Shown here one piece after another: positions 2,807 through 61,800 of a DNA stretch of 63,589 bases (within the stretch, counting starts at the first letter, position 1; the number at the start of each line of letters is the position of its first letter). The stretch comes from Beroe ovata (taxonomy: Eukaryota; Ctenophora; Nuda; Beroida; Beroidae): the NCBI GenBank assembly GCA_946803715.1, contig CAMPET010000220.1, positions 20,430 to 84,018 on the forward strand, in the 5' to 3' direction. A program made the position numbers and the translations under genes. The notes beneath the pieces were generated by a model. The model saw only the letters and a list, made by a program, of their open reading frames with translations, searched no databases and was not told where the DNA came from.

Positions 2807-3848
2807 ATGGTTCAGTGTCAGCGATCGTTGACACCACTCGTGACATGCGTACGTCACATGGCAGTCGGATACAACTACAAAGTATCGAACAAGCGATGTT
2901 TTTACGATCCTAAACGGGGGGATGAGGCGGAGAGCAAGGTGAAGATACCCTTCAAAGAGAGGATTGAAAACATGTCAAGGGAGAGGAAATGGCAGCTCAG
3001 TCTGGTGGAGGATATCTTCAATAATTACCAGAACATCATCGCTTTTCATATGAAGTATCAACCTAGACAAGAGTATGAGTAAGTCGCTATCAATCCGCGG
3101 AAATTCATTAATTTGATTAAATTATCTCTATCTGAAGAAACAGTGTCGGAGAATATGATGAAACCAAATTCCTGATCTGACATGTTTCCCAGCGTTACTC
3201 ATCAGCAAGTTATATCTACAGGCAAAAGTTAGACTGGGATTTGGTTGACGAACTGCAAGGAACAACAATCCAGGGTAACTGGTATCCCAGACACTGTGTA
3301 ATGAATTACCTGAGACGATCGCCGTACATACACATGTTGCCGCTCTTTCAACACAGGACTGGGATACTTTATACCCACAATGAAGAGGAGGTGCAGAAGA
3401 TTTGCAAGTGAGGACTCGGGAAATTGGGGAACAGAAACAGGGGTGATATGAGGATTGAGGGTAGGGGTGTGATTGGCCGATCGGGGTTGAATGGGGTCAG
3501 TGGTGTGATCAAGATCTAGCGAGAATAAGGGGGTTGGCGTTGCTGGGATGGGTGTTTTCCCATATTCTGATTGGTGTTGTCGATAGAGGAGTTTAATGAG
3601 ATCACTGTTTCAGGATTCTGCTCAAGTCCCAGTACAAGAAACACCTGATCCTAGGCGGTCTCGTGGGTGGAAAACTGTACGGACCCACTGACTTGGTCCG
3701 GTTAGGAGAGCTGGAGGATAAGATAACAGAGCAGAGCAAACTAGTCGGACTTTTGTCTACCCCAGGTGTGACACTCTCACAGACACTCTCCCACACGTCG
3801 TCCAACCTGGCACTGGTTCTCCAACATCGACCATCGCCGGACAGCTAG
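2807..3848 (+). CDS. MRPL10: Mitochondrial large-subunit ribosomal protein uL10m
   Basis: Component of the mitochondrial ribosome stalk base. Exons 2807-3078, 3222-3407 and 3614-3848 give a 230-residue protein (human form is 261). The N-terminus is basic and free of acidic residues, as expected for a mitochondrial leader. Middle and C-terminal parts match uL10m: MLPLFQHRTGILY resembles the human LLPLFVGHNMLLV segment, HLILGGLVGG resembles the human PLLGG segment, and the protein ends with SSNLALVLQHRP where human has THSLLQHQP. Starting at ATG 2807 keeps the leader. An AATAAA is visible shortly after the stop near 3913. The neighbouring gene starts only 197 bases downstream on the same strand. 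Confidence 0.88.
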
Positions 3849-4044
3849 CATTCTGTGTTTGGGCGTTTGGTAGGGAATGAACTATGTGGGAATGAAATAT
3901 TAAGCGTTCATGAAATAAACTATGTTGTTCAATTATTGTTCATTTATTGTCGTTGTATGTGTTTCTATTCAGTACCGGTTCCTAGGGCTTTATCATGTGA
4001 TCACATATCTCAATAAACAACTCAATTGATCTCACTAGCAAGAT

Positions 4045-7000
4045 ATGTTATGTAGACGGTGTGTACCACTCTTACAACGATCAGCTGCCAGTAAACCCAG
4101 GAATAGAGCAGACACCACTGTGACCACACAGACACTCCTCAGACACTCCTCTACGTCCAAAGACACCACCATACGTGATCAGGTGACTATAATCATATTC
4201 TCCAGCAAGTTGATTATATATTTCGGCAACTATTCAGCGTTTTCCTGGATATATTGCGGGTTGGTTATCCGAAATCACATTCTCAGGGCAGCGAATCACG
4301 TGAGCTGGTTGCGGAAGATGAAGTAGATGAGCTGAAAAGTATATCCGAGTGCAACACAACCACGGATAGACGGGGATTTTATCGTCCACTGTCGTCGAAA
4401 ACACTCACCGGTCACAAGATACACCGTGAGTTTGACGGTCATTGACATGTTCCACCATAACCACGATTATCAAGCTGAACAAAAGAATCAAAGCCTCATC
4501 ATTTCAGCGCACAATCACATTGTGGACAAGCTGTACTGTGAAACCCAAGACAGAGAGATGAAATACTTAGGATTGGACTCGAGCCAGATGAGTTATGACG
4601 AGGAAACGGTTCTCAATACCATCAAACAGCCAAAGGTTGGTCATGATCCTCCCCAGGGTCCATCTTGTCATCAATCGGACACTGTGTCCGTGCAGGAACA
4701 GTTGACCGGTGGACGGATAAAATTTGGCAGCACTATCCAAATTGGCGCCCCGAATCTTTGCGGTTCTAGTTGTGGAGGTATGTTTTTGTTGGATTAAAAT
4801 GAAACACGTCTATTGCTTGCGCTCATTGAGTCGTTTCCAGGTTCAGGAGTTTATTGACGGACTTCAGGACAAGTACTTGGCAGAGTTGCCCGGCAGACTA
4901 GAGGGAGCACTGAAACAGGCCCAGAAAATCCGGAACTTCCGAATGTACCCACAAAACTTGATGGGACTAGATCCCTTCAACTACATACGAGAAGTTAGCA
5001 CTCAGACATCCTGTTCACTAACAGATAAATGCAATTTCCACTGCAGTGAATGCAATGATTGATATTGGCAAATCGGTGGGTACAATATACCAACTACTGT
5101 TCTCCTGTCCGCAGGAATTGGCAGCACAGGAACACATGAACGAGATGTTTCCTGGCGGAGAAACACGTGTTTCCACGGGAACGGCACTCAATAAACTCGC
5201 CCTGAAGAGCCCCCTCGACCTCCCATATCTATTGAAGAACGAGGGGTTCAGCACGGGCATCTCTCAGTTCTTCAAAATCTACTTCATGCAGGTAGAATTG
5301 CCCAGGGAAAGTGTGCTAATTTCCACGACTGCCATGGGATAAACTCGCGTGTTGAACAGTGCAATACGGCGCACCTCATTTGCGCGCGATGGTGCGACCT
5401 GTGACAATTTTGGCAGAGCAATGATGGCATTATATATGTAGAAATTCACATTATACAGTAATTAATTGATATAGTTATTAATTGATGACATCATGAAAGG
5501 GTAAGAGCGCGGGGACTGCCAAAGTTCGGAGTTTGAAGAACAGGGGATACGATCACGGAGTATCGGACAGAGCTCTGAGAAACAAAACTCTCGCAGCCCA
5601 TCTGCAAGACGTGAGTTAACCCGCTACTCTCAACTGTTTTCCAAGATCGAGATATCAGCGTAATCTTCGTCGGCAAGTTCCACGGTTGTTCTAGGATCAT
5701 CTTGCGTAGTATGAGGTGTCTCCAGATTTGAGTACACTTCATCATGATCATGATATTCGTTTGAAGTGGGTTTTGAGTGAGCGAGGTCAGAATAAGTGTT
5801 TTCTAAGTCAATAGCCTCGGATATGTCCACTTGTCCAGAATACAATTCCTCATCACTCACAGTCACACATTTCTTCTTGTTCATATCTCTCGTTTTTGTG
5901 GTTGACAAATGGTTGTACACAGAATCGTCATCTTCTCCAACAACGTCTTCTTCAACACGACCCAATGTTGCGTAAGTCATGTTTCCATGTGAACCACTCT
6001 CCACAGTGGTCGTCAATTTTGTGGTTTTGTTTAGAGTGGTTGACAAATGGTTGTAATCAGATTCATTTCCATCCTCAACACGACCCAGTGTAGCGTAAGT
6101 CATGTCCTCATGGTCGATAACAACAGAAGTTGCCTGGCTGAATGACTTTTGAACTGACCCACTCTCCACTGTGGTCAATTTTATGGTTGACAAATGGTTG
6201 TACACAGAATCACCATCTTCCTGACCAACAGCGTGGCCCAACGTGGCGTACGTTGAGTTCCCATCGTTACACACTGTATCACATGACTCAAGCTTGCTCG
6301 TGATTGGTTGAATATCTTCTTCAATCACCGCACCCGTTGGCTTACCCCCGCCAATGCCCGTATACAGCGATTCCTCTTGTTGCACCGCTGGTAAACCACC
6401 CATGACATGTTCCATAACAGCGAGTGTACTGTTCCCCCGATTCCTCATTCTCTTCCTCGTGTATAGAGTGCACGTAACCACGGCAACGACCGCAACCACC
6501 ACACCCACAACTTCTCCTACTATGGCGAGAGAAGACACACCCGAAGACGGGCGAACACACCTCGCGCCCTGCGCGCCATTCCGACAGACACGTGCCCCGG
6601 ACACTTTATCACACGTGTAGTATCGTGATGGGGTACACGATACGGAGCAATTCATGCCGTAATACCCCTCTGAACACGTGTCACACTCGAACCCACTCCA
6701 ACCGACTTCACATATCTTCTCGCCATGATCATTGCACGTGTATCTGCCCTGTGCAGATTCACACCGCACGTCACAGATCCACAGAGGGTAGTAATTGGGG
6801 GCACAGGAGTCGCAATTAGCACCGGTCCATCCAGTTTTACAGTCATTACAGTGCTCCCCGACTTTGTTTTCATTCCGGCACAACTGTCTCCCAGTTTCAC
6901 CATCGCACGTGTAAATGAGCGTCGGTTTACAATACTCTGAGCACGTGTGAGTGTAGAAGTGCGCGGCGCACTGGTTACAGCCCAGACCAATGAAATTGCT

Positions 7001-9139
7001 CGCACACTCTATGATTCGATAGCGCATGACTAGATACGCAACGTCAGTTTCAATTGTGTGATTCAACTTCTCTCTAGACGTACGTCCAGTGTTTTCCACT
7101 ATGTTCTCGTATGGTATAGTCAGCTGAACATCATGCAGTACTTCTGTTGCACCGTTCACACCCCAATTCAGTATTTGAAGTTTTAATGTCACTGTTGTAT
7201 TGGTCGGCAACCTAAATATGAACGGAGACTCAATTCCATCTATCCTTCGCAAATCAAATCGACCATCATTTAGCTCATCTTGTCTACTTGTTTCCGTCCT
7301 GTTAAACAGTGTGTTGTCGCCCGAGTCGAATATACGTATGTTAGCGAGAGATATGTCACACCCCGACTGCGGTGTGCTGCACGCTGTGTCCTTGAACCAG
7401 TTAATTTTGAGATCTGCCTGACCCTCGGCTTTCGTCTGGCAAACCTGGGCAAGAGCGGGGTGTGGTTACCTGAATTCGGTTCGGCACGAAATGAATATAG
7501 GATTATGTGTCATGTTGGGGATTGTAACACCCCCATGTGACTGAGAAATGTTTAGGAAATTGGGTCGTTCAAACTATATATAGGTATCTGATATCTATAG
7601 ATATCCACTTCAAACTAATTCAAATTTCCGTAGCTATCTTCTTCAAACTAGGTAGTACTAGTAGGTACCTATTGATAGTTAAAAGTTACTGCACTATAGG
7701 AAAACTATAGTTAGCCCAGTTACGCGTATGTGTACACATGGAAAAAAGGCGGATGGAAGGAAAAATAGACGCGCAATTGTTAGCAATTGTTAGCAGTTTC
7801 ACTGTAAAGTGCGCGTCTTTTTCTTTCCGTCCGCTCTTCCTTCCATGTGTACACATACCGGTTAGCTAAACTTTGTGTAGGAAGCACTCGCTTTAACTCA
7901 CCGTTGCAATCATAATCACCCACCACAACATTTCAGTCACAAGTCACTACTACGGTAAAATATGATAAGTTAATGCTCGAGAGATCAGGTCAGCACATAA
8001 TAATGATATGTCGGGAAACTTGACGGATAGTACCAATACGATATATATTATGGTGGTGGAAAACGTACGCCGTACGGATTAGCACTGCTGGAAGTGAAAA
8101 TCGTGGAAATCTTGAGTTGAGCATGTGTATTGTGTATCAATAATCAGGGTAACACCGAAGCATCCGAATGTATATCAGATATTCAGAGGTAGATGATCCA
8201 ACACCTTCTAGGTAACTCCTTCTAAGTAACACCTAAATAACACCTATATGACACCTTCTAAATTACACATCTTAATTTGATTTAGTTACAACCATTTCTC
8301 TTTGATCATTATCAGGTCTATCTGCGACATTTCGAGCTAATCAAAGAGCAGAAGTGGAATGTGCTTCTCGATTACATGGCTGAGAAGAAGGTCTCTGAGC
8401 TGATGACGTCATGCAGGAATGAGGAACCGGACCTTATCAGGGCGTGGTTTGATGTTAAGTTCCTGGAGAACATCAAGAAACCGAAGATTCTGTCCCACAT
8501 GGAGTTACCCCTCGGGGAACAGAAGTTTATTCAGGTATTAACACGTTGAGAGTCTGACACGTTCCTTCGTAAAACCGCACGACGTTACAACGATACGAAC
8601 AAACGCACCGACAAATTTCTTGTTTGCCTGAATGTGTGTGTGTGTATGCGTGTGTTTGTGTTTGTGACACAGACAAACACACACACATACACACAAACAC
8701 ACACACAGTGTTACTCAAGCACACTGATCTCAGGTTTTAGTGAGGTTCAGTGTCCGAGTGGAGTGTCTCCACCTAGTTGAGGGAGAGGGGGGAGAAAAGG
8801 AGGCGATAACTGGTCCCCAGGATATGATACACTATGTGGTTTTTGAGAGAGACATCAACGACATCCTCTCTAATTATCGGATCATTGACAAGGTAAACAT
8901 AGCTTCTACTGTTCATTCGGTAGTGATGTCATAAATTGAGTGATGATAATAACCCCGAATATTGTGAAGACCTAGGTGTGGTGAGTTCAGACTTCAGATT
9001 ATGAGCTGTATTGACCCAATATAAGCCACGCCACTTCCATCAGGTGAGGGAAGATGATATCGAGTTTTTCAAGAGGAACAGGTTAGACGAGGACACTCTA
9101 AACAGGACAGGGCCCCGGTTAGGGGACGTGATGTCATAA
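4045..9139 (+). CDS. MRPL45: Tim44-like-domain mitochondrial protein, probably ribosomal mL45
   Basis: Likely mitochondrial ribosome/membrane-tethering protein with a Tim44-like fold. Exons read: 4045-4182, 4287-4425, 4475-4635, a region around 4700-4785 whose junctions I could not resolve, 4841-4993, 5115-5291, 5500-5610, 8316-8534, 8734-8892, 9044-9139. The start MLCRRCVPLLQRS looks like a mitochondrial leader. The C-terminal half gives YDHGVSDRALRNKTLAAHLQDV, aligned with the human mL45 segment around DYDANFKIKDF...EAH, and later QDMIHYVVFERDINDI, aligned with KDVLEYVVFEKQLTNP. Phase 0 on both sides supports joining 5610 to 8316 across a 2705-base intron that contains a complete gene on the other strand. 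The N-terminal 250 residues are not recognisable, so this part could have another origin. Tim44 itself is the main alternative. Confidence 0.6.
5630..7931 (-). CDS. Single-pass receptor with tandem DSL-like domains and ITAM/ITIM-like tail, nested in an intron
   Basis: Two exons: 7902-7931 (MLWWVIMIAT) and 5630-7444, joined in phase 0 to give about 614 residues. The short first exon with VCQTKAEG makes a plausible signal peptide. An N-terminal C2/MNNL-like region (about residues 20-150) is followed by three cysteine-rich modules of DSL type, for example YTCNDHGEKICEVGWSGFEC, the spacing seen in Delta/Jagged. A hydrophobic segment rich in V/A (about residue 315) precedes the basic stop YTRKRMR. 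The cytoplasmic part holds about ten YxxL/I motifs: three copies of the pair YATL...YNHL, then YSDL, YSNL and YADI. By family logic it is a cell-surface ligand or receptor signalling through SH2 proteins. MITE copy 1 lies in its only intron. The start exon is my prediction; the main exon is very secure. Confidence 0.82.
7721..7864 (+). mobile_element. MITE-like hairpin element, copy 1
   Basis: A 144-base element whose ends are inverted repeats of about 45 bases, beginning TATGTGTACACATGG and ending with its complement. The core carries two copies of CAATTGTTAG. It has no coding capacity, as expected for a non-autonomous DNA transposon. It lies in the intron of the DSL gene and, on the other strand, in the large intron of the mL45-like gene. 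A near-identical copy in the opposite orientation is at 10215-10358. Confidence 0.8.
7932..8315. other. Intron 3' part / upstream region of the nested DSL gene
   Basis: No exon recognised on either strand. It should contain the promoter of the nested minus-strand receptor gene and the 3' end of the host intron, which closes with ATTATCAG at 8308-8315. Short repeats of the phrase ACACCTTCTA/ACACCTA occur at about 8200-8260. Confidence 0.4.
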
Positions 9140-10214: not shown

Positions 10215-10358
10215 TATCCGGTATGTGTACACATGGAAGGAAGAGCGGACGGAAAGAAAAATACGCGCACTTTACAGTGAAACTGCTTACAATTGCTAAC
10301 AATTGCGCGTCTATTTTTCTTTCCATCCGCCTTTTTTCCCATGTGTACACATACGCGT
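10215..10358 (-). mobile_element. MITE-like hairpin element, copy 2 (inverted relative to copy 1)
   Basis: Reverse complement of the element at 7721-7864 with only a few differences, including the flanking CCGG and CGCG that mark the element ends. The two copies could pair as a long inverted repeat bracketing about 2.35 kb. No transposase is present. Confidence 0.8.
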
Positions 10359-17749: not shown

Positions 17750-20700
17750 TCGTGTGTGAAAGTCTGACTCCCGCTGTGACTGTTTGACATTACTTGATTA
17801 ATAATCACCGCACAGGAGTTACACGCACACATCCCACACACATCCCACACACACACACACACAAATCACACACATGCATCACCTCCATTTAACGTGTTCA
17901 GTGTTCATTGGTAAAATGCCCAGACACGCGCAGTGACCAGTGAAGCAAAGGGGTACTGCAATTATCGAGGAGCGTTGTGCCACCATGATAGTTCACCAAT
18001 GGTTTCAGCTACACGTGCATCAATCAGACACTATCCAAATATCTTTGAATCTCACAATGAACGGTCATGGTGTGTGATCGCAAATAGCATCCTGGATTAC
18101 ACAAGGTAGTTGTGATTCAATTGGATTCGCGTGATGGAACTCAGGCAATGTCACACACACACACACACACACACACTCTGCTCACACCGGTCGCGTACTC
18201 GTGTGAGTGTGTGAGAATGTGTGATTGTGTGAAAATTATGACAAAATATTGGGTCCAGTGAAGCGTAAAAAGTGCCTAATCTCTTGTTGGAAAATATGCA
18301 GAATGAAATGTGAAGCTGCATGTGGGTTTATCGCTCTCCCCCCTGTGAAATCTGTGGTTTTCTCCGATCCAATATTTACCCCCAATGAACTGCAATGAAA
18401 TGCACAAATCGGGGCTGAAAATCTCTAAGAAAGATATGTGTGCTCTAGATATATTGTACCTGGGGGATATCATTGGTCATCAGAAACACACAGGGGGTGA
18501 TGGGGTGAGGTGGTAACTGGATGATTGAATGAGCGGACAATGTGATTAGAGTAACACGAAGCTGGAATTAGGAGCATGGGGTATTATGAAGGGGAACCAT
18601 GCTGTTACCATGGTTACCATCTACAGGTATAATCAGTATTCATTACCGGTAGAGTGGTGAGGGTGGATGTATGTGCATAACTTGGACAGCAGCATACAAA
18701 CATACAAGAGCGCGATTTGATGGGTATAATATCACTAAAATCTACTAAAGCCGATATCACTGAAGCAAATATCACTAATGGTGACACTTTAGTGACATAA
18801 TCTGCTACATCACACCAAAAAGTCCTCTCATCATAACTGACATCTACCACGGGTCTTTCCACTATATTCCTTTATCAGCATAAATACGGTATAGTGACGA
18901 ATACTGTTACCCCACATCACTTTATCAGCATCCGTTTATGAGAACCACTAATTATCAGTTCATCAGTTTCCTATCCCAGCTCTAACTCATATCTCTCTAT
19001 CCACAAAGAGTGAGAGTCACACTAAAGACTGGTGGGACACCCTAATACTCTAGAAAGACCTAATAGTACACAAGTTATCGGTCAACAAATCACACTCATT
19101 AAGTGCGAGACTCTGATCTGGACTGAAGCTACTACCATAACACAGATACACGGGACAAGATAAGGGAAAGGGGAGGGAGTGGAGGGAGTGAGAGGGGAGT
19201 GAGGGAATGTGGGGGAAGGGGAGTGAGAGGGGAGTGGAGGGAGTGAGAGGGGAGTGATAATATCGTCATTATGAGATCGTATACCTACACTCGCCAGTGT
19301 GTCTGAGTACAAGATAAGTGACGCTGTATAGTACACAGTACACACTGATTACAGAATATTGAGTGCATTCAATCAGTTATCGGGATATAAGCTCTTAATC
19401 TGAGCTGAACACGTCAATTTAAGTATAAACAACCTCGTCATAGCAACGGCCCCATTACATAGCAACATACGGGTGATTGATGAGGACTCTCTCTGTCGTA
19501 GGTTGTTTCGGGGCAACCTCTCCCATCAAAAGCAACATGTGCCAGCGTCAGCTCAACCTCACACTCACGCTTCAGTAGCTGTATCACCTGAAAATAGGAT
19601 TAAATCCGTGTTACTTCATAGTGAAAGTTAGAACTGCTGACAATTAGAGTGGTGTCAACCAATTAATGGTGTCAAAAAGAGTGACAGGATTTCAGCCATA
19701 TTTTGAGGGTAGATGTTGAATTTCAATGATTCGGTAAAAGAGCAATTAACACTATTCACACACAAACACACACAAACACACTCTCTCAAGCAGTTGTTTG
19801 GAAACAAGTGGCTGAGAAGGAGATACTACAGTGTAGACCGTGATATGAATTGTTGTTGTTGAATAATATTGTTGAAGAATGGGCACAAACACACACACAA
19901 ACACACACACGCAGCGTGACTGTGTTGTTACACTATCAGACTATGTGACTTTAGCATTGTGCAGAGACTAAAGTCAGGCCCACATGATATTCAGACTAAA
20001 GTGAGGTAGCATAATATGTGATATTGGCATAAGCCCTACTGAGACTAAAGTGAGGCTAAAGTGAGGCTATAGTGAGACTAAAGTGAGGCTATTATGATCT
20101 AACGCTACTCAACTCGTATCAAATGTATCGTAACATGTGTGAGAAATGATAGAGATAAAGGTACATGGTGTTTTGCATGTATATTGTATGTGCTTGTGGT
20201 GCGCACACGCACACAATCTTTATAGTTTTACGTAAATTGCGTATATATGTGTGCGTGTGTACTGTGTGCGTGTGTTCAATTACATAATAGGATAAGAACG
20301 CAAGCTCAGTAAGTTACAAATGATACGGTTGCTTTACTATAGTACTTTAACTGTGTTAATCATAAAAGAGTGCGTTGCTACGTGAGACACTATTATCAGA
20401 TTATGTCAGTGAATGACAGATTACTGTATTCGATACATACTTACTTGACGTTTAAACCGACAATTGCAATGAACTTTAATTGTACTGACGATGTACTTAC
20501 AAAGTACTAATAATAAACTCACAATATTACAATCCTGTGTGTGTAACCATGATGAAGAATAACTCACATCTTTCTGCGTGAAGGATTGTCCCACTTGTCT
20601 CCCTGACACTGAGATCAGTCTGTCTCCCTCACTCATTTCACCACACCTGAAATGAACGGACCTGTGAGTGTGAGGGGCATCCGAGTATGTTGTAATATGG

Positions 20701-25159: not shown

Positions 25160-28100
25160 ATGAGTGAGTATTATGACTATGAAGAGAGCATGGATGATGA
25201 AATCGATGAACTGACATATTACTGTGTACTTCCAGTGATTGAACAAGTCACTGCAGTGTTTCTAAAATTATTTGGACTGAGTGCCATAGTAAGTGATTAC
25301 TCAACAATCTTTTCTCCTCCAGCAGTTTGTGTTGATGCAAAGAAATTTGTTTACAAAACCACTTATCCTCAGATATCTATCTTTGCACAACTGAACAGTG
25401 TGAGGATAAATTCAATTGTTGACATATGTTTAGGGTTGATCTGTGCCTTTCTCTTCTATGAATCCAGTATAAGATATATAGGTAAATGTTCTTTTTCAAG
25501 AATGACTTTGTAAATTATGAATTGTTAAAGGAAGGTTTAGTTTTCTACTGCCTTACATTAACTCTCTTCTCAGTTGCTGTGGTGTCAATTTCCTACCTTG
25601 TAGTGTCAGTTACAAGAGGAAGCGGCTATTGTGGTGCCTTAGTCCTCATCTCCAATCTACTGTTTGTTTTCATCTGGTATGTAGCAATTAATTGAAGGAT
25701 AAGAAACGTATGATCCTTCTATATTTTCAATACTTACCCTGGTTACAACAAGTAATATTCATGCAGTGAGCTTGTCATAGTTGAAGCTGAACAATGGCAC
25801 CAAATCCGGGGGACAATTATCTTACTCCTCATGAAAACAACCTCACTGGGATTTGATATGGATGCAGGAGTGATTTCCATACCACCTGCATTGGTGTACT
25901 TTGGTTATACTCTGTCTCCCATTTCCCTCATATTCGGACCTTTTGTTACACTATCAGACTACAGGCGGAGCAAGAATACTCAATTTGTAAGTAGGTGCAT
26001 TAGTTAGAATTGAGTAAGATAGTGACTGCCACTCTTCACTTACACTGACATATTCCTACATTACAGACTCGAGAGACAGTATACGGCATCAGCAGCTCAC
26101 TCTGTCTTGCTTACAGCACAGCGATATTTTCCACCTGTATTCTCAATTATGCGCTGGATGGTGCTCATAAAAACACGTCAGTACCACTTACTAAAGTATT
26201 TATACTCAAGTATCACAGCTTACTATATGGCTGACTTACTATTGTTTATATGTCGCTGTTTCCAGGATGTTCGGAGTGTACTTCACGGCACAGTCATTCC
26301 GAGCTAGTCACTACTTTGTGTGCTACACATCACAAATCACAGCGCTCATTGGAGGTTACCAGCACACAGCTGAGGAACCGTAAGTACACTGCGTCTTGTG
26401 ATCTGTATGGTCTCTTTTATCATTCTGTACGAGGGGAGACTTGCTAATTCGAACTGAAATCGACTTTGACCAAGACAGAGTGGTTATGTGCCTAGCCTGG
26501 AGATTATTGCTGTACGGCATGTTAAACAAGGAATCGAAACCGTGGGGTTCCGTACAGACCACTCTGTCACAGAATTTAATAGCCTTATCACATTATAAGT
26601 GAGGATGTGGGAATCTAACCATTAACCAATGACCAAGAAGTTTTTACAAACACTCACTTACTTGTAGGGATGAAAATAGTAAGTTAAAATAGTAAGGCAT
26701 CCTTATTATTCGAACTAGCTTGTCTTCCCTCTCCAATGAATCTGAAGAGCTTTATTCTGCCATAAAACAAATCCAATAATCAGGTATACAGTGGTTTCAC
26801 CACTCCAAGTTGAGATTCCCGCGTCTATGTCAGCTGTTGCTAAGTCGTGGAACCTACCCATGCACTACTGGCTCAAAACATGTGAGTTCGCACTCTTTTA
26901 AAATCTATTTTAAACACACCAACGATTTCATTGACTGTTAATCCATTTTGTTTTTGTCAGATATATACAAGAAGTCAAGGTCCCTGGGAATGTATGTTGC
27001 TGCATTCCTGACATATGCAGCGAGTAGCATCCTACATGTGAGTGAAACAGTTACATAATTGTCACGTCACGAATTGAATTAGATTTCGTGATTGGCCGAA
27101 TTGTCACAAAATCACAAAAAATGCGAACAGATCCAGTATTTTCACTAACGCGCGGAAATGTTATTGTTGAGTTTCAGCAGTTGAAACTAGCGATAGAAAA
27201 TGCGCGCGCATTAGTGGCGCGCAACATGTGCTTCACTATTTGCGCGGGAAATGAACTGAGATCCTCCTTCAGGGCTTGAACTTCCAACTCCCTGTGGTCC
27301 TCTTTTCGATATTCCTATTCTCCTACGTTGAAATCGGTGGGTGACAAATTACACAGGCTGGTATCTCTTGTTAACATTATTTTATGATTTTGTCGATGCT
27401 TTGCAACTCTCAAAACATCATCCCACATTCCTGCATTTCAGCCCTCAGGAATGAACTAGCAACACTTCTTGACACTTGTGTACGAGTTCACAGATGTCAC
27501 AACTGTTCTCACAAAAACAAGGTGAATTCCAGTGACGATATTTGTATTTCACGCACCGATAACTGCTGAATGCAAATGATAATGCTCGATAATATTCTCA
27601 GATATTGCGTGGGCCTATCAAGTTGCTATTCATTGCTATCAATGTGATACAGTTAGCATATCTCGGTGTTATGTTTGACTCTGACCCTTCACAGACAGAG
27701 GTTAGTCAATCGTGAAAAAATGTATTTTTAACTCACACTGAAATTTGAGCGTCCACTGATAATGATATGAAACCGAATTCTTTTGTTGTAGTGGAACAGT
27801 GTAGTTGTGAGAAATTGAACTGAAACGAGCATATTTTGTTGCATACTTTTAGCTGTGTTTGATTATTGTTGAGAACTGGTCACATACTGGTTACGTTGTT
27901 GTTCATCTTTCCTCCCTCTAATTTGTATTGTATTCCGTGAATCACATCGAGAGGCACTTTCGCTTTTGGATATTAAACTCATAACACTATGCACATCATC
28001 TGTTAATATTACTTGTTTATGTCGGATTATGCATCATTCTGCTCCCACCTTTTGTCTTTAGATCTCGGTACAATTCTGTGAAGATATATTCAGGTATGGC

Positions 28101-29723
28101 CAGGGTGAGACGATTTCTCAACACAATCCAGAGGCTGAATGCTGATGTCAATGCTTTCATAAACATCAACAGTTTCGCTGTCGAGCAAGGTATTGAATCC
28201 GAAGAGAGAATCAAGAACAACTCCCAGAAATCTGATATCGATGGCATGGTAATATCGGTTAAAGATAACACCCATGTCAAGGGCATGCCAAACACAGCCG
28301 GCACTCAAGCACTGAGAGATTTCATTCCTACTGAAAACGCTCCTGTAGTCGAGAAGCTACTATCTGCTGGAGGGATCTGTATCGGCAAAGTCAACATGGA
28401 GGACATGGCGTTTGGAATCACCTCCTACAACCCGGTGTACTGTCAGGGCGGAGTGAAGGGGGTCAGGAACGCTCACGACCACACCAAGATAGCTGGCGGC
28501 AGCTCGGGCGGGAGTGCTGTATCCGTTGCCATGGAGATGTGTGACGTGTCGCTAGGGAGTGACACGGGGGGTTCAGTCCGCATACCCGCCGCCCTCAACG
28601 GGGTCGTGGGGTTCCGGCCCTCCACTGGGCGGTATTCCAGTGAGGGGGTAACCCCCATTTCCCACACTCGGGATACTATCGGTATACTTAGCGGGGGTGT
28701 GGGGGATGTACAGCGTGTTGATAGTGTGATATCTGGAGATGGGATATACGCTCTGGGAGAGGGAGATAAGGTAGTGGTGGGTTACGATGCTGCAAACTCA
28801 CTGGCTAATTGCTCTGATGAGGTACTCCAAGCGTGGAATGCCGTGATTGAAACTCTGAAACAGGATGATCGCATCACGCTAGTCCCAGTCGACACAACTA
28901 AATCAGTGGAACTCTGTGCTGCAGTTACTAGTCCTATAGTACTGCACGAGGCCAAGTTTGATCTCATATCTTATCTAAACCGGTACATCCCTGATGTCCC
29001 AATAGAAGAACTGGTGGACCAAGTCACGACCCCGCCCATCAAGAAGACGTATGCAGCTATCATGATGGATCACAAAGCAGAGTATGACACGGCGATGACC
29101 GATATCCGTCCCAAACTGATCGCTGAGTATCGGGGACTATTTGAGAAGATCAATTTGATAATAGCCCCAACGTGTCCTGTAACTGCTATGGATGCTGATC
29201 CTGACGTGCTGTGGACGCAATGGAATGAGATTTTCCGGTTGTACGTACAGAATGTAGACATTGCAAGTGTTGTTGGTTCGCCAAGTATCACGATTCCGGT
29301 TGCTAACCCCACTGGAGGTTTGCCAGTGGGGTTGCTCATTGACGGAGATGTGAAGTGTGATTCGTATGTTCTTGCTGTCGCACGACTGCTTGAGGGAATG
29401 TTGAAATGACTTAATGGAGATCTTTTGAATTGTTAGAAAATTATTGTCTCATAATCAATTATTGTCTTGTTTTATGTTTAATCATTTTATCTTCTAAGCC
29501 TGACAGATTACACGTACTCAGCGAGTAATCACGCACAAATCACGCATTCTTCACATATAATCACGCACTTGATATCACGCATTATTAACAGGGCTACTCG
29601 TGGTGGAACGTGGTATCAAAGTGGTCGTCTCTCTACTGGTACGGGCACGTGCTGTGTGGTGCTGGTGCAGTTTTCACAGCTCTACTCCATCTTGTCAACA
29701 GGATAACAAAGAAACAACAGTGA
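25160..29723 (+). CDS. PORCN: Protein-serine O-palmitoleoyltransferase porcupine (MBOAT family)
   Basis: ER membrane acyltransferase that attaches palmitoleate to Wnt proteins, needed for Wnt secretion. Eleven exons: 25160-25481, 25574-25676, 25767-25986, 26067-26176, 26266-26379, 26784-26881, 26961-27037, 27273-27336, 27442-27521, 27602-27700, 29592-29723; total 1419 bases, 472 residues (human 461). Diagnostic segments: WHQIRGTIILLLMKTTSLGFDMD (human [23 protein letters not shown]), FGPFVTLSDY, SWNLPMHYWLKTY with the conserved Asn, and AASSILHG with the MBOAT catalytic His. The last exon GYSWWNVVSKWSSLYW matches the human ending with HKWSELSWASHW. Multiple hydrophobic spans are evident. The final intron (27701-29591) is far longer than the others and contains a complete amidase gene. 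Confidence 0.95.
28096..29409 (+). CDS. Amidase-signature hydrolase, intronless, inside the last porcupine intron
   Basis: A 437-residue enzyme of the amidase signature family, which hydrolyses amides (GatA, indoleacetamide hydrolase, FAAH and relatives). The Ser-cisSer-Lys triad is visible: Lys in VISVKDN, cis-Ser in GGSSGGS, nucleophile Ser in GSDTGGSVRIPAA. The C-terminal GGLPVGLLIDGD...LAVARLLEG resembles bacterial indoleacetamide/mandelamide hydrolases more than FAAH; that is an impression, not a search result. ATG 28096 is the first in frame, but the N-terminus looks about 30 residues short. The frame is open upstream to 27985 with a hydrophobic stretch, or may join an unseen exon. Same strand as the host gene, no introns although neighbours have many: signs compatible with horizontal transfer or retroposition. 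Confidence 0.9.
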   Translation: MARVRRFLNTIQRLNADVNAFININSFAVEQGIESEERIKNNSQKSDIDGMVISVKDNTHVKGMPNTAGTQALRDFIPTENAPVVEKLLSAGGICIGKVNMEDMAFGITSYNPVYCQGGVKGVRNAHDHTKIAGGSSGGSAVSVAMEMCDVSLGSDTGGSVRIPAALNGVVGFRPSTGRYSSEGVTPISHTRDTIGILSGGVGDVQRVDSVISGDGIYALGEGDKVVVGYDAANSLANCSDEVLQAWNAVIETLKQDDRITLVPVDTTKSVELCAAVTSPIVLHEAKFDLISYLNRYIPDVPIEELVDQVTTPPIKKTYAAIMMDHKAEYDTAMTDIRPKLIAEYRGLFEKINLIIAPTCPVTAMDADPDVLWTQWNEIFRLYVQNVDIASVVGSPSITIPVANPTGGLPVGLLIDGDVKCDSYVLAVARLLEGMLK

Positions 29724-55811: not shown

Positions 55812-58800
55812 CTAATCTTCACAGCAGAATCCAGATTGAATCCTGTACTCTTCTTGGCACGCTTTGGGTGTGCAATCACGTGACTCTGTGTTGACACAGT
55901 TAGCGTCACATCCAGTGATATCACGCCACGGCGTGCAGATGCAGTCGGGTACCTCCTCATTACCCTCCTCTGGGAGGGTCAGAGAGGCGGGTGTGTCACT
56001 GTCAGTGCTTGTGCCGTTACCTGTGTGACGGGGTGTGTTAGTGAGAGGGTGTGTTAGTGAGTGGGTGTGTTAGTGAGAGGGTGTGTTCACTAACATGTGT
56101 GGGTTAGTGAGAGTGTGGGTNATTATGAAGTGATTATGTGGGTAATCAGCAGGTCATTACCTCCGGAGCAGCATGGTTCTAGTATTGGTTTCTCCTCGAT
56201 ATCACATTGGTCCACACAGTCTCGTATCATGCTTGCATCGCAAGTTTCTTTGCACCTCCAGGGGGAACACTCGCACGGCTTTTCACAGCAAGCCTCCAGA
56301 ATGGGCTTTTCCTCGATATCACATTGGTCTTCACATTCTCGAATCATTGTGGCATCACAGTTCTCCTTACAATGCCACTCAGTGCATTGGCATGAGATTG
56401 GTTCAATTTGTTCTCCGAGGTCACAGCAAGCCTCCAGAATGGGCTTTTCCTCGATATCACATTGGTTTTCACATTCTCGAATCATCGTGGCATCACAGTT
56501 CTCCTTACATCTCCACTCAGTGCATTGGCATGAGGTTGGTTCAATTTGTTCTCCGAGGTCACAACAAGGCTCCAGAATGGGCTTTTCCTCGATATCGCAT
56601 TGGCCTTCACATTCTCGAATCATTGTGGCATCACAGTTCTCCTTACATCTCCACTCGGTGCATTGGCATGAGATCGCCCCGACTATTTCTCCAAGGTCAC
56701 AGCAAGGCTCAAGTATGGGTTTCTCCTCAATGTCACAGCTGTGAGTACAGTCTCGGACCATAGTGGCGTCACAGCTCTCCTTACACCGCCAATCAGAACA
56801 GATACACTCGTCTGTGCAGCAGTCACTCGAGCCGTACTTTATCTGAGAATGGAGGGAGTTAGTCTTGAAATAGTAGAAACTGATGTCACTTCGTTGCCCT
56901 AAAAGCAAAACTTTTCTGTGATTGTAGCAGATTGGTGTCATCGTTAAGGGGGAACTTAGCATTGGTGTCATCATGGATGTAGCGATGGTGTCAATACACG
57001 TGTATTTCCCTACCTCAACATCACAGGCGGCAGGTCCACAAGTCCTAACGTAGCTGTTGTCACATCTCGGGTTGCAGATCCAGTCGGTACACTGGCATCC
57101 CTCTACGGATCATTATGATATTAGTGTGATGTCGCGAGAATCAAGCGAAATATGTATCATCTGTGGACCTTGTAGAAAATGATTTTGAACAACACGCTCT
57201 ACTGATGGCAATGTATATAGTATGACCATTGAACAATGTCAGTATTTAAGAGTAATGCTGGGTGCAAAAGTGTAAGTGTATCCAGGTTGGCCAGCGTGAG
57301 AAAGAGTTCGATGGTCAGAGTTTGCTTCTGTGTAAGTGTATGCAATGGATGAGCACTCACGGCACTCGGGGGCATCGTCNTGAGCACAGCCACCCTGCGC
57401 CTCTTGGTGACACGCCACTGCCACCCAGTCGCCACACTCGCACCCATCTACTGCTGGAGTCGTGGAGTTGTGACTTGTTGTGACCTCACAGCAGGAGGTT
57501 TCCACGTTCTTCTGCTCCTGATCACAGCTTGGTGGATCGCATGATCGGGACATTCCGAAACAGTCGGCGGAGCACTCCCACGGTCCGCACTCGCACTCCC
57601 CACTCGCTACTCTCTCATCCTCTGACGGGGAGAGAGAGATTACACTCACACATTAGTGTATCATAACCCGACCCTTGATCGTCCCTTGTCATAGATGAGT
57701 AGATGGTACACCACGGTATGCCAATTTAGAAAATACTGCAGCTAGTTCAGACTAGCTTGGAACTTTGGTCATAAATTCAAAATCAGATAGTTTTGGTGGA
57801 TCAGAAACTGCATACGTTCGTACTAGCTGGTCTTTCTTCAATTGGCATGCGAAGAGTGGATACATGTGATGTATGTATTTGCCCCTAATTCCCCTGATGA
57901 TGTGATTGTTTTTACCATTTTGGGGGTATACTGGCGGTTGCCTGATGTTCCAATTTTTGCGAATTTCCATTTTCCAGCGATTAGGTGCGACTTTATATCG
58001 AATAAGATAAATAGTGTAGTAGCCGTTACCGCCCAATATGTCTGATGAATTATACCTCTCGATAGTGTGTGAGCTCTGCCATCTTGTGAACCCCTCATTA
58101 CCACGTGATTATCGAGTGATTATGAAGTGATTATGAAGTGATTATGTGGGTAATCAGCAGGTAATTACCTCCGGAGCAGCATGGTTCTAGTATTGGTTTC
58201 TCCTCGATATCACATTGGTCCGCACAGTCTCGTATCATGCTTGCATCGCAAGTTTCTTTGCACCTCCAAGGGGAACATTCGCACGGCTTTTCACAGCAAG
58301 CCTCCAGAATGGGCTTTTCCTCAATATCGCATTGGTTTTCACATTCTCGAATCATCGTGGCATCACAGTTCTCCTTACAATGCCATTCGGTGCATTGGCA
58401 TGAGGTTGGTTCAATTTGTTCTCCGAGGTCACAACAAGGCTCCAGAATAGGCTTTTCCTCGATATCGCATTGGTTTTCACATTCTCGAATCATTGTGGCA
58501 TCACAGTTCTCCTTACATCTCCACTCAGTGCATTGGCATATGATCGTCCCGACTATTTCTCCAAGGTCACAACAAGGCTCCAGAATGGGCTTTTCCTCAA
58601 TGTCACAGCTGTGAGTACAGTCTCGGACCATAGTGGCGTCACAGCTCTCCTTACACCGCCAATCAGAACAGATACACTCGTCTGTGCAGCAGTCACTCGA
58701 GCCGTACTTTATCTGAGAATGGGAGGGGGTTAGTCTTGAAATAGTAGAAACTGATGTCACTTCGTTACCCTAAAAGTAAAACTTTTCTGTGATTGTAGCA

Positions 58801-61800
58801 GATTGGTGTCATCGTTAAGATGGTGTCAATACACGTGTGTCTCCCTACCTCAACATCACAGGCGGCAGGTCCACAAGTCCTAACATAGCTGTTGTCACAC
58901 CTCGGGTTGCAGATCCAGTCGGTACACTGGCATCCCTCTACGGATCATTATGATGTTAGTGTGATGTCGCGAGAATCAAGCGAAATATGTCGGCGGACCT
59001 TATACATTGTAGAAAATGATTTTGAACAACACACTCTACTATGATGGCAATGTATGACCATTAAGCAATGTCAGTATTTGAGAGTAATATGCTGGGTGCA
59101 AAAGTTTGAGTGTATCCAGGCTGGCCAGCGTGAGAAAGAGTTCGATGATCAGAGTTTGCCTCTGTGTAAGTGAGTGAAATGGATGAGCACTCACGGCACT
59201 CGGGGGCATCGTCTGGGTATCTCGGACACTTGACCGCCATCTCGAACTTGCCAGCGGGGCACTTGTCACGTGACACTTTACAGACGGGATCGCGACACAT
59301 ACAGTCCCTGAATCGAGGTCGGGTCTTCATGATACACGACTTCTCCCCACAGTCAGGTGTCGACCAATCGCTCCACCCTGTGAGATATCGGGTGAATAAA
59401 GAGGACGAGGTGTCCTGGTCTCAGTGGTGAGTGCCCCACTCAGAGTGCGTCTGAGTCAGGGAATCAGGGTACTTCCTCCTGAAATCCATGGTATGGTTCC
59501 ACTGCCAGGGAATTGACTTGATTGTTCGAATTGGGGCTGGTTCAGACAAGGTATTTGGGATGGACTTTGAGCTTCCTACGCAGGGAATATCAATGGTTAA
59601 ATTGGCAAATCTGAAATCTCTGCTAGCTCAACTCCAATTACCTGCATCACAATCCTCGCTATCAGAGTAGACTGTGTCCAGTGGACACCTGGAGCCATCC
59701 ACATAGACATCATTGGTGTCAACACACCGACACTCACGTGTCTTCTGCTTCTCACAGTTGGTGTCACACTCAGACCACTCTGACCACTCAGATACTTCGA
59801 CTGTTATAGAGGGGGTGTCAATAGTCAGAAATTTTGCATTTCAATTTCATAGATCAGTTCGCATCGGAAACTCAAGAAGAAGTTGTTGTTTCATTTATTT
59901 CATTGCTTCCGCCCTTCACACAAATGTCTACTCACATTCCTTGGTGCTGCACACCTCAACTTCCGTTGAGAGTCCGCCCAAATACCCGCACTCGGCCTCC
60001 GCCTCCGCCGCGTCGTGGTTACCGAACTCATCTGTTCCCCATGATATGGTGCTGCTGAACTTGCACAGACACTTCCGTGTTCGGATGACAGTCGACTCGG
60101 TACAGAGTTCCTCGCTGCACCCTCCCTCCCATGGCCCCCATACTGAAGCAGNGTTGTTGAGAGAGAGGGCATGGTTTGGAGTGGTTGGGTTAGAAGGGTT
60201 CATTTAGAGGGGGGTGCTACAGAGTCACACTATCATAATCACGAGATACTAACCTCTGTCACAGGGTATAGATTCAGTGGGCTCTCCACTACACTCGTCT
60301 CTGTAGAGTGGACTCTGCCCGGGCTCCAGACACGCGCATTGTCGGGTACGTGTTTTCTGACATGTTCTCAGTGTGTCACATGCAGTGAACCCGGACCAGT
60401 TGCTCCACTCGACTGTCGGGTGTTAGGAACAGTCAGTGGTTTAGTGTGGGAAACAGTTTGAGTTAGTTGGGTGGACCAGGGGTGATGAATCGAGAGTTGG
60501 AAGTGTGGTTGTCAGGGGAATGTGGTTGTCAGGGGAGTCTGGTTGTCAGGGGGAGTCTGGTTGTTAGGGGGAGTGTGGTTGTCAGTGGATGTGTGGTTGT
60601 CAGGGGAATCGGAAGTGTGGTTGTCAGTGGATGTGTGGTTGTCAGGGGAAGTGTGGTTGTCAAGGGAGGTGTGGTTGTCAGGTGAAGTGTGGTTGTCAAG
60701 GGAAGTGTGGTTGTCAGGGACAGTGTGTCGATACTCACAAGGCAGTGCCGGTGGACACGCGACCTGTTCTCCGTCTGTGGTCGGTCTCTTATCCTCATCA
60801 CATGTGCCCTTGTGCCAGTACGGGGTACACCGGCAAATGGAGGGACGGCGTGTGAGCATGGTGGCGACACACTTCTTCTCGCTACACGTGACTTGAGGTG
60901 GCTCCTCCCACTCACACTCGCCTGGGGATTGAGGGGGTGTTAGCGTGTGAGGGAGAGGGGTTAGATTGAGAAAATATTTGACAGAGAGATGGTCTGGGCA
61001 GAGATGAACTGTATGGGATGTGTTAAAGTTAGACTGATAGAGGCGGCAGGCGATACACTGAAGGTGGGAATGGAGTGTGTCAGTGTTGCTGTGTACACTG
61101 TACTTACATGGGGGTCCAGGACAAGAGACAACTCTGAAGTACAGGTCTCCCTCACAACTGAGATGTTAATGAGGTCATCAATTAACGGTTCATTACGCAA
61201 TTAGTGATTGCTCAATTAGCAGGTTGCACTCACTGGTCATTTGACATCTTGATACCAGGGTTCTGTGCACACCCACACTGCCTGTACTCTGCTGTCTTGG
61301 GATAGCACTGTCCAACTTGTTGAGGAGGACACGGCTTTCTCTGCCACTCTCCCCATTCTACAGAAATAAGAGTGGTAGAAGTGAGTAGTGAGTGGTCGGG
61401 CGAAATTAGTGGATAACTCAACTACCAAAGCTGCTTGTTATTGTTGTCCTAATGTTGTTTTATTGCTCTCGTAATGTTGTCTCAATGTTGTGTTATTCCG
61501 AAACCATTTCAATGGGCCCTCACAACACTTCCAAGAAGACTTCCTGTCTTCCCATACATCAACTCAGTACCTGAAGCACAATCCCGCGTTTCCTCTGCGA
61601 CCCCTCCCGGACACTTAGAAACGTCCGAGTCGTGGATTTGTCGTCCGTCGAAACACGCACATCGCCGAGTCCGTGTCTGTTGGCAGTTTCCGTCACAGTT
61701 ATCCGGCGTCCACGGTCCCCAATCGCTCCACTTGGCTGAGAGGGGGGAAGGATGGGAGTGAAGCTTTGATTCTGTCGACCCTCAGTCGTCATAGCAATCT

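Follow-up and report, generated by a model that had tools for sequence, protein, structure and literature searches.

A ctenophore family of candidate cell-surface receptors with C2-like and DSL-repeat ectodomains and ITIM-like tyrosine arrays

What would a membrane protein with repeated DSL domains, the binding domains of Notch ligands, do with a cytoplasmic tail full of immunoreceptor-like tyrosine sites? The question is raised by a minus-strand gene on contig CAMPET010000220.1 of the ctenophore Beroe ovata (assembly GCA_946803715.1), within the 63,589-nucleotide stretch analysed here (positions 20,430 to 84,018; hereafter the window, C220:20430-84018). The assembly (77.8 Mb, 534 contigs) was searched genome-wide; its genes are cited by the C numbers of their contigs, so that C220 is the receptor of the window, and proteins from outside the assembly are cited by P numbers. 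Judged from sequence, the protein belongs to a real and conserved receptor family. It is probably a C2-DSL-repeat cell-surface receptor whose tail would act as an SH2-docking array resembling immunoreceptor tyrosine-based inhibition motifs (ITIMs) rather than activation motifs (ITAMs).

The gene is read from an open frame at 5630..7465 of the window (611 codons, stop to stop). Exon 2, the remainder of the receptor to the stop codon, occupies 5630..7444 and is preceded by an AG acceptor in front of GTT TGC CAG. A probable exon 1 is positioned at 7902..7931, where an ATG opens the signal-peptide-like start MLWWVIMIAT and is followed by a GT donor; the GT/AG pair joins MLWWVIMIAT to VCQT and gives a product of 614 residues. 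The ATG and the donor are identical in place in a second copy of the gene on C519. Exons 1 and 2 are predicted to encode a type I, single-pass membrane protein, with the transmembrane helix at about 6476..6538, the hydropathy maximum (mean 2.57 over 21 residues). The receptor regions of C220 and C519 (window 5423-7739) are 99.0% identical and their flanks 91.6% and 92.8%, which could result from gene conversion, a selective sweep or haplotype mixing.

The first-pass annotation had described the ectodomain as DSL repeats, and profile searches bear this out. The cysteine-rich region (6551..7006) consists of one partial laminin-EGF/DSL-like unit and DSL repeats at 6551-6676 and 6680-6805 (C220:26980-27105 and 27109-27234), of which 6680..6805 is the best. 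Pfam DSL (PF01414) matches two stretches of the protein with an E-value of 1.1e-11 (45.2 bits, gathering cut-off 24.2), EGF_laminin matches with 2.3e-7, and DSL is matched by all seven members of the ectodomain alignment (A3). The profile of these seven ectodomains retrieves from the PDB Jagged-2 (2.1e-6), Jagged-1, DLL1, Serrate, and Delta, across the DSL region. The alignment was needed to find relatives because the window protein, used as a single query, retrieved no relatives: none of 7,999 scored candidates reached E<=1e-3, and the PDB gave factor VIIa alone (E 0.98).

The N-terminal domain (7004..7444), at the site of the MNNL domain in Notch ligands, is C2-like. An eight-row profile of the first ~145 residues (A6) matched only C2 proteins in the PDB (11 of 11 matches at E<=10), namely ten protein kinases C, with PKC-beta as the best (0.0065), and one synaptotagmin. 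Pfam C2 was weakly matched by three of the eight rows (best 0.002); five other families were each matched by one row (best 0.0078). MNNL (PF07657), named together with DSL in the first-pass annotation, was unmatched in the window protein and the family rows, and a genome-wide search run without a positive control gave none. The MNNL profile misses most sponge Deltas in the excerpt of PMC5684314 as well, and Notch ligands themselves begin with a C2 domain (PMC5538765). Because of this and of the C2-like N-terminus, the C2-DSL order of Notch ligands seems to be retained, with several copies of DSL and no EGF repeats, as far as weak profile scores indicate. After DSL, Pfam found no EGF repeats, just laminin/attractin-EGF matches overlapping the DSL-rich region, and EGF_DL_JAG was matched by two of seven ectodomains at a best E of 9.2. 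A calcium site in the C2-like domain of the window protein was considered and rejected: a scripted scan for the motif D-x-D-x(4-6)-D was positive in 10 of 19 rows and negative in the window protein. The scan missed at least P0003 and P0010, in which the motif is seen by eye.

The cytoplasmic tail (5633..6457; 275 residues, probably disordered) contains 12 tyrosines and ten YxxL/I sites. Ten of the tyrosines are in the context Y-x-x-[LIV], compared with a mean of 2.21 in shuffled tails, and none of 20,000 shuffles reached ten. The three YATL...YNHL modules described in the first-pass annotation are present in the minus-strand frame at 6191..6250, 6044..6097, and 5906..5974, with gaps of 12, 10, and 15 residues, and so are the additional motifs YTGI, YSDL, YSNL, and YADI. 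The C-terminal YADISIL (5642..5662) has counterparts in YAD[VM]TIL of C209, C198, P0004, P0005, and P0009, and in YADVTFV of P0012. Acidic residues fill 20 of 50 positions before the C220 sites and 50 of 275 in the tail; upstream acidic residues suit tyrosine kinases. Because the tail is internally repeated, the ten sites do not represent ten independent events. The three modules do not differ by a single nucleotide in YNHLST, which makes the repeats partly recent; this identity is uninformative on selection. It does fit a neutral origin, in which tandem duplication within a disordered tail multiplied the tyrosines as a by-product, as do the five nonsynonymous and two synonymous codon differences between the tails of C220 and C519. 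The ectodomain and transmembrane helix contribute one nonsynonymous and five synonymous differences to the total of 13, none of which alters a tyrosine or a +3 residue, and one of which is the last position of YADISIL (both by eye). Against a neutral origin, the three TYATLG copies differ synonymously only, and sites are kept between paralogues and beyond the assembly.

The genome-wide search for DSL gave 22 exon matches on eight contigs (40 candidates scored). A similar ectodomain is encoded by C220 (copy C519), C209, C198, C231, and two frames on C77, and other DSL genes are C53 and C42. Long tyrosine tails belong to C220, C209, and C198. A dense YxxL/I tail exon was not seen by eye for C77, which adjoins a stretch of N. 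C425 was rejected as a separate gene and left uncounted, as it looks by eye like a partial copy of C198.

The pair C209 and C198 provides evidence for selection on the sites. Their ectodomains and transmembrane helices are identical in 308 of 392 aligned residues and their tails in 73 of 158. Five of the six tail tyrosines of C209 are kept in C198, and the flanks of these tyrosines (positions -1 and +1 to +3) are identical at 17 of 20 positions, which was reached by 1,122 of 100,000 random sets of five conserved non-tyrosine positions. For the motifs, the ratio of nonsynonymous to synonymous substitution (dN/dS) comes to 0.079, compared with 0.356 for the rest of the tail; the motifs were picked by their conserved tyrosines, which somewhat favours this contrast, whereas the flank test excludes the tyrosines. 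The motif dS of 0.82 indicates that the two genes are not recent copies. The low motif dN/dS at this dS largely contradicts neutral tandem duplication as the source of the tyrosines, and that explanation is considered very improbable.

The sites are also found outside the assembly, and the relatives with conserved tail motifs for which the first-pass annotation had called thus exist. The ectodomain alignment identified 11 proteins among 867 candidates, and P0013 was added with 8,000 scored. Except for P0003, the proteins P0002-P0013 begin inside the N-terminal domain (by eye), so they may be exon-wise gene calls with perhaps incomplete ends. Ten tails were compared, omitting P0002, P0003, and P0006 (21-23 residues after the transmembrane helix), the near-copy C519, and P0007 and P0010, which have no clear transmembrane helix (best mean 1.40 and 0.98). 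The sites of P0005 are MTYATLN, MSYATLN, YADMTIL, MYADVSF, and YFTM; P0004 and P0009 contain TYADVTIL, and P0012 contains TYADVTFV. Seven of the ten tails have YA[DE][VIML]. Two paralogues and some outside relatives share T-Y-A-x-L/V and YAD[VIM][ST] sites, and the order YADxTIL - YA[DE]V[AS]F - YxxM is common to C209, C198, and P0005. The DSL match and the conservation of tail tyrosines in relatives leave the first-pass annotation standing on both points on which it had been staked.

Alignment to P0005 gives 42% identity over 438 residues for C209 and 30% over 477 residues, with many gaps, for C220. Local tail scores against P0005 are 89 for C209 and 87 for C198 (shuffled maxima 71 and 68) and 85 for C220 (shuffled maximum 80), and C209 scores 69 against P0012 (shuffled maximum 65); each score was reached by none of 1,000 shuffles. 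The tails of C209 and P0004 are weakly alike (5 of 1,000 shuffles). YxxPhi sites are enriched in six tails, with the observed count reached in 10,000 shuffles by 0 for C220, 1 for C209, 1 for P0005, 4 for C198, 14 for P0012, and 26 for P0011. Acidic residues occupy 14 of 35 positions before the sites of P0005, compared with 51 of 255. A tree of 17 rows, built without C519 and P0013, pairs C231 with P0003 at 93/91. Elsewhere its resolution is poor (4 of 14 inner branches starred; C220, C77a, C77b, and C231 long), and therefore orthology of C220 is not claimed.

The spacing and context of the sites indicate to which class the tails are nearest. Strict ITAM spacing (6-8 residues) occurs in none of the ten tails and loose spacing (6-12) in two, twice in C220 and once in P0004 (YETI and YVNV); of the 36 distances from one site to the next, 28 measure 12 to 37 residues. 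The two loose pairs of C220 were reached by 37 of 20,000 shuffles. The claim that two modules fit the ITAM rule thus holds for loose spacing, but not for strict spacing and not as a family trait. Strict ITIMs ([S/I/V/L]xYxx[L/I/V]) number five in C220, reached by 13 of 20,000 shuffles: SLYTGI, STYATL, SVYNHL, SDYNHL, and SVYNHL. The first-pass annotation had called each YATL ITIM-like, which is right for STYATL and not for the two MTYATL copies, which are without the ITIM residue at -2; this residue is carried by the three YNHL sites (S-V/D-YNHL) and by SLYTGI. Among 46 pooled sites, which include near relatives and repeats, threonine is at -1 in 18 and alanine at +1 in 22 (backgrounds 8.5% and 6.5%). 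The recurring element looks like a single T-Y-A-x-[L/V] site, nearer to ITIM-type arrays than to an ITAM, and vertebrate ITIM-type sites resemble this pattern. Genome searches with tails alone returned only the query itself with C519, and C209 with C198; no other kind of ectodomain carrying the tail turned up.

The same spacing bears on whether the protein is an engulfment receptor like Draper/MEGF10, with an ITAM that a Syk/Shark kinase would read. Draper, MEGF10, and CED-1 likewise combine a cysteine-rich ectodomain with tyrosine motifs in the tail, and Draper is read by Shark (PMC8092387). Two of the three C220 modules fit YxxL-x(6-12)-YxxL, but eight of the ten tails are without ITAM spacing, NPxY was not seen by eye in the C220 tail, and the EMI domain was found neither in the protein (Pfam) nor in a genome-wide search that had no working control. 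A possible reader is encoded on C71, where an SH2 domain is followed by ankyrin repeats like the start of Shark/HTK16; in Shark the ankyrin repeats are positioned between two SH2 domains (PMC9486129). However, the C71 SH2 is nearest to CSK (1.4e-5; SYK 0.0012 with a typed query) and not clearly of Syk type, and no kinase was seen because the gene runs into a stretch of N from position 100615. An ITAM or phagocytosis role is possible but not favoured, and an ITAM receptor of this particular kind appears improbable. Independent assembly of the receptor, as proposed in the first-pass annotation, is plausible, with the qualification that the EMI search behind the contrast to Draper had no working control.

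The genome encodes candidate readers for an ITIM-like tail. SH2 gave 19 matches of 25 candidates on 16 contigs, including C44, the SH2 of which is nearest to Src (5.6e-17) and has kinase matches ~5.6 kb downstream. Protein tyrosine phosphatase (PTP) domains gave 44 matches of 46 candidates, also on 16 contigs. The two SH2 domains of C149 were considered as Syk or SHP and rejected, as the frames around them resemble PLC-gamma (by eye). The phosphatases of C57 and C9, the two PTP loci that were opened for SH2 inspection, were rejected as SH2-phosphatases: their frames read without SH2, one being receptor-PTP-like and the other cytosolic-PTP-like (by eye).

Several observations weigh against an ITIM-like, SH2-docking tail shared by the family. 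None of the 16 PTP contigs is among the 16 SH2 contigs, so SHP, the expected ITIM partner, was not seen, in an exon-by-exon search that may miss it and that did not include SHIP. The nine tails besides C220 have 0 to 2 strict ITIMs each. For P0004 (566 of 10,000 shuffles), P0009 (2,075), and P0008 (2,555), the number of YxxPhi sites does not clearly exceed chance. The tails of C220 and P0012 are not alike (score reached by 490 of 1,000 shuffles), and that of C220 is weakly like those of C209 (3 of 1,000) and P0004 (18 of 1,000). Acidic residues are not enriched before the sites of C209 (5 of 30 compared with 24 of 173), and the conservation of tyrosines between C209 and C198 is by itself marginal (P about 0.043). 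Finally, YxxL/I (YxxPhi) fits AP-2 sorting signals as well.

This last point is shared with the explanation that the protein is a Delta-type Notch ligand whose YxxL/I sites act as sorting signals for endocytosis and so exert a pull on Notch. The order of C2-like domain and DSL is that of the N-terminal module of Notch ligands, including Delta/Jagged and sponge Deltas, which also have a single transmembrane helix, and Notch-ligand tails drive endocytosis (PMC1965462). The Amphimedon protein AmqDelta4 is also without EGF repeats (PMC3482393). In contrast to Notch ligands, the window protein has repeated DSL, no EGF repeats found after DSL, no MNNL match, and a long conserved array of tyrosine sites, the AmqDelta proteins being compared by description only. 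Ten sites are present where one would suffice for sorting, and threonine at -1 and alanine at +1 are more specific than YxxPhi. No Notch receptor was recognised in the assembly: two LNR matches (5 candidates scored) are in a GNPTAB-like frame (by eye), repeats on C32 initially taken for Notch were rejected (by eye), and NOD gave two matches below the cut-off (E 0.51 and 0.98). The NOD result is tempered, as NOD was undetected in all sponges of PMC6040629 too, according to the excerpt. The other DSL genes, C42 and C53, could serve as ligands. A role as a Notch ligand is therefore regarded as unlikely, although less so than an ITAM receptor for engulfment.

Under the favoured reading of an ITIM-like array, a scheme for the partner, tail phosphorylation, SH2 docking, and the direction of the signal can be proposed. 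The ectodomain, corresponding to the binding module of Notch ligands minus the EGF repeats, would meet a partner on another cell or surface. Clustering would lead Src-family kinases to phosphorylate the tail sites, for example T-Y-A-x-L and V-Y-N-x-L, and SH2-domain proteins would dock on them. The array is most like ITIM-type tails, which are multi-site and usually inhibitory or modulating, and may act in this manner.

The family also includes short-tailed members. C231 ends shortly after the transmembrane helix, and so does P0003, which is 46% identical to it over 341 aa and has the common end ILV[QE]PLE[YF]S. The possibility that the end of C231 is an intron (GTAAGA after the transmembrane helix) was rejected, as P0003 ends alike. 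The long (C209, C198, C220) and short (C231/P0003) tails might suggest paired receptors, which combine alike ectodomains with a shared ligand, but the ectodomains of C231 and C209 are only 42% identical. Because the short-tailed sister is without the sites, long- and short-tailed forms may act as a set. It is conceivable, though a tentative proposal, that early-branching animals evolved their own paired immunoreceptor-like set on a Notch-ligand ectodomain; this set would sense neighbours or particles, would signal via Src kinases and SH2 proteins, and would have arisen apart from both Ig-type immunoreceptors and Draper.

Vertebrate LILRB, KIR, SIRP-alpha, and Siglecs are likewise membrane proteins and carry several YxxL/V sites singly, in many cases with threonine at -1 and alanine at +1; they are likened here by motif and not by homology, and, unlike the window protein, have Ig ectodomains. 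Among invertebrates, ITIM, hemITAM/ITAM, or core Y-x-x-I/L/V motifs occur in the cell-surface proteins FcoR of Botryllus and Alr of Hydractinia; the FcoR differ from the window protein in being Ig/sushi proteins of a polymorphic locus (PMC12065747). The statement of the first-pass annotation that DSL ligands normally lack such tails is too strong, because SH2 sites are predicted in the tails of human Notch ligands, where ITIM and the immunoreceptor tyrosine-based switch motif (ITSM) appear in the legend of the prediction figure (PMC1965462), and in those of AmqDelta1-4 (PMC3482393). Repeated DSL is shared with cnidarian DSL-only genes (1-11 DSL; one MNLL+3 DSL), which are compared by description only and for which the excerpt of PMC2770060 describes no tail. 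These predictions, the cnidarian genes, and the Botryllus and Hydractinia motifs provide precedent for each half, the DSL ectodomain and the SH2/ITIM-type tail. The conserved combination was not found in the literature searched: no text was found pairing DSL with immunoreceptor-like tyrosine tails, in a coverage without most subscription journals, and a whole-word search for 'DSL domain' and 'ITAM' gave no paper on such a combination, judging by titles.

The family joins Notch-ligand modules and immunoreceptor tyrosine tails, toolkits usually held separate, and the combination may represent a signalling receptor that was invented separately. Should the tail prove to be phosphorylated and bound by SH2 proteins, the family would offer a way to study cell recognition in animals that have no Ig-type immunoreceptors. 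It would also bear on whether a DSL protein can signal inward, to its own cell, and on how often ITIM-like tails arose. Because sites are conserved among paralogues and in relatives outside the assembly, individual tyrosines can be chosen for testing.

Other features surround the receptor and its relatives. A short element is present in two opposite-orientation copies at window 7740-7864 and 10215-10354 (125 nt, 97%), the latter with inverted termini (48 nt, 83%). The first copy is within the probable intron of the receptor and is missing from C519 (alignment break 7739/7845), and the element therefore looks like a recently active miniature inverted-repeat transposable element. Plus-strand open frames at 2823-5291 and 8317-8535 flank the receptor (by eye), and Pfam names none of four pieces tested; they may together belong to a single gene that has the receptor inside one of its introns. 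On C42, two near-identical DSL exons (1998-2219 and 3906-4268) are ~2 kb apart and similar to the canonical Delta DSL (second DSL 1.5e-10). Farther along the window, the minus strand at 56119-59213 contains large tandem repeats of a 138-nt cysteine-rich unit (CQCTEWRCKENCDATMIRECE...), in two blocks ~1.8-2.0 kb apart and up to 97% alike, the first block without a Pfam family. On the plus strand, 27985-29409 is one open frame of 474 codons that encodes an amidase (Pfam Amidase, 8.3e-81).

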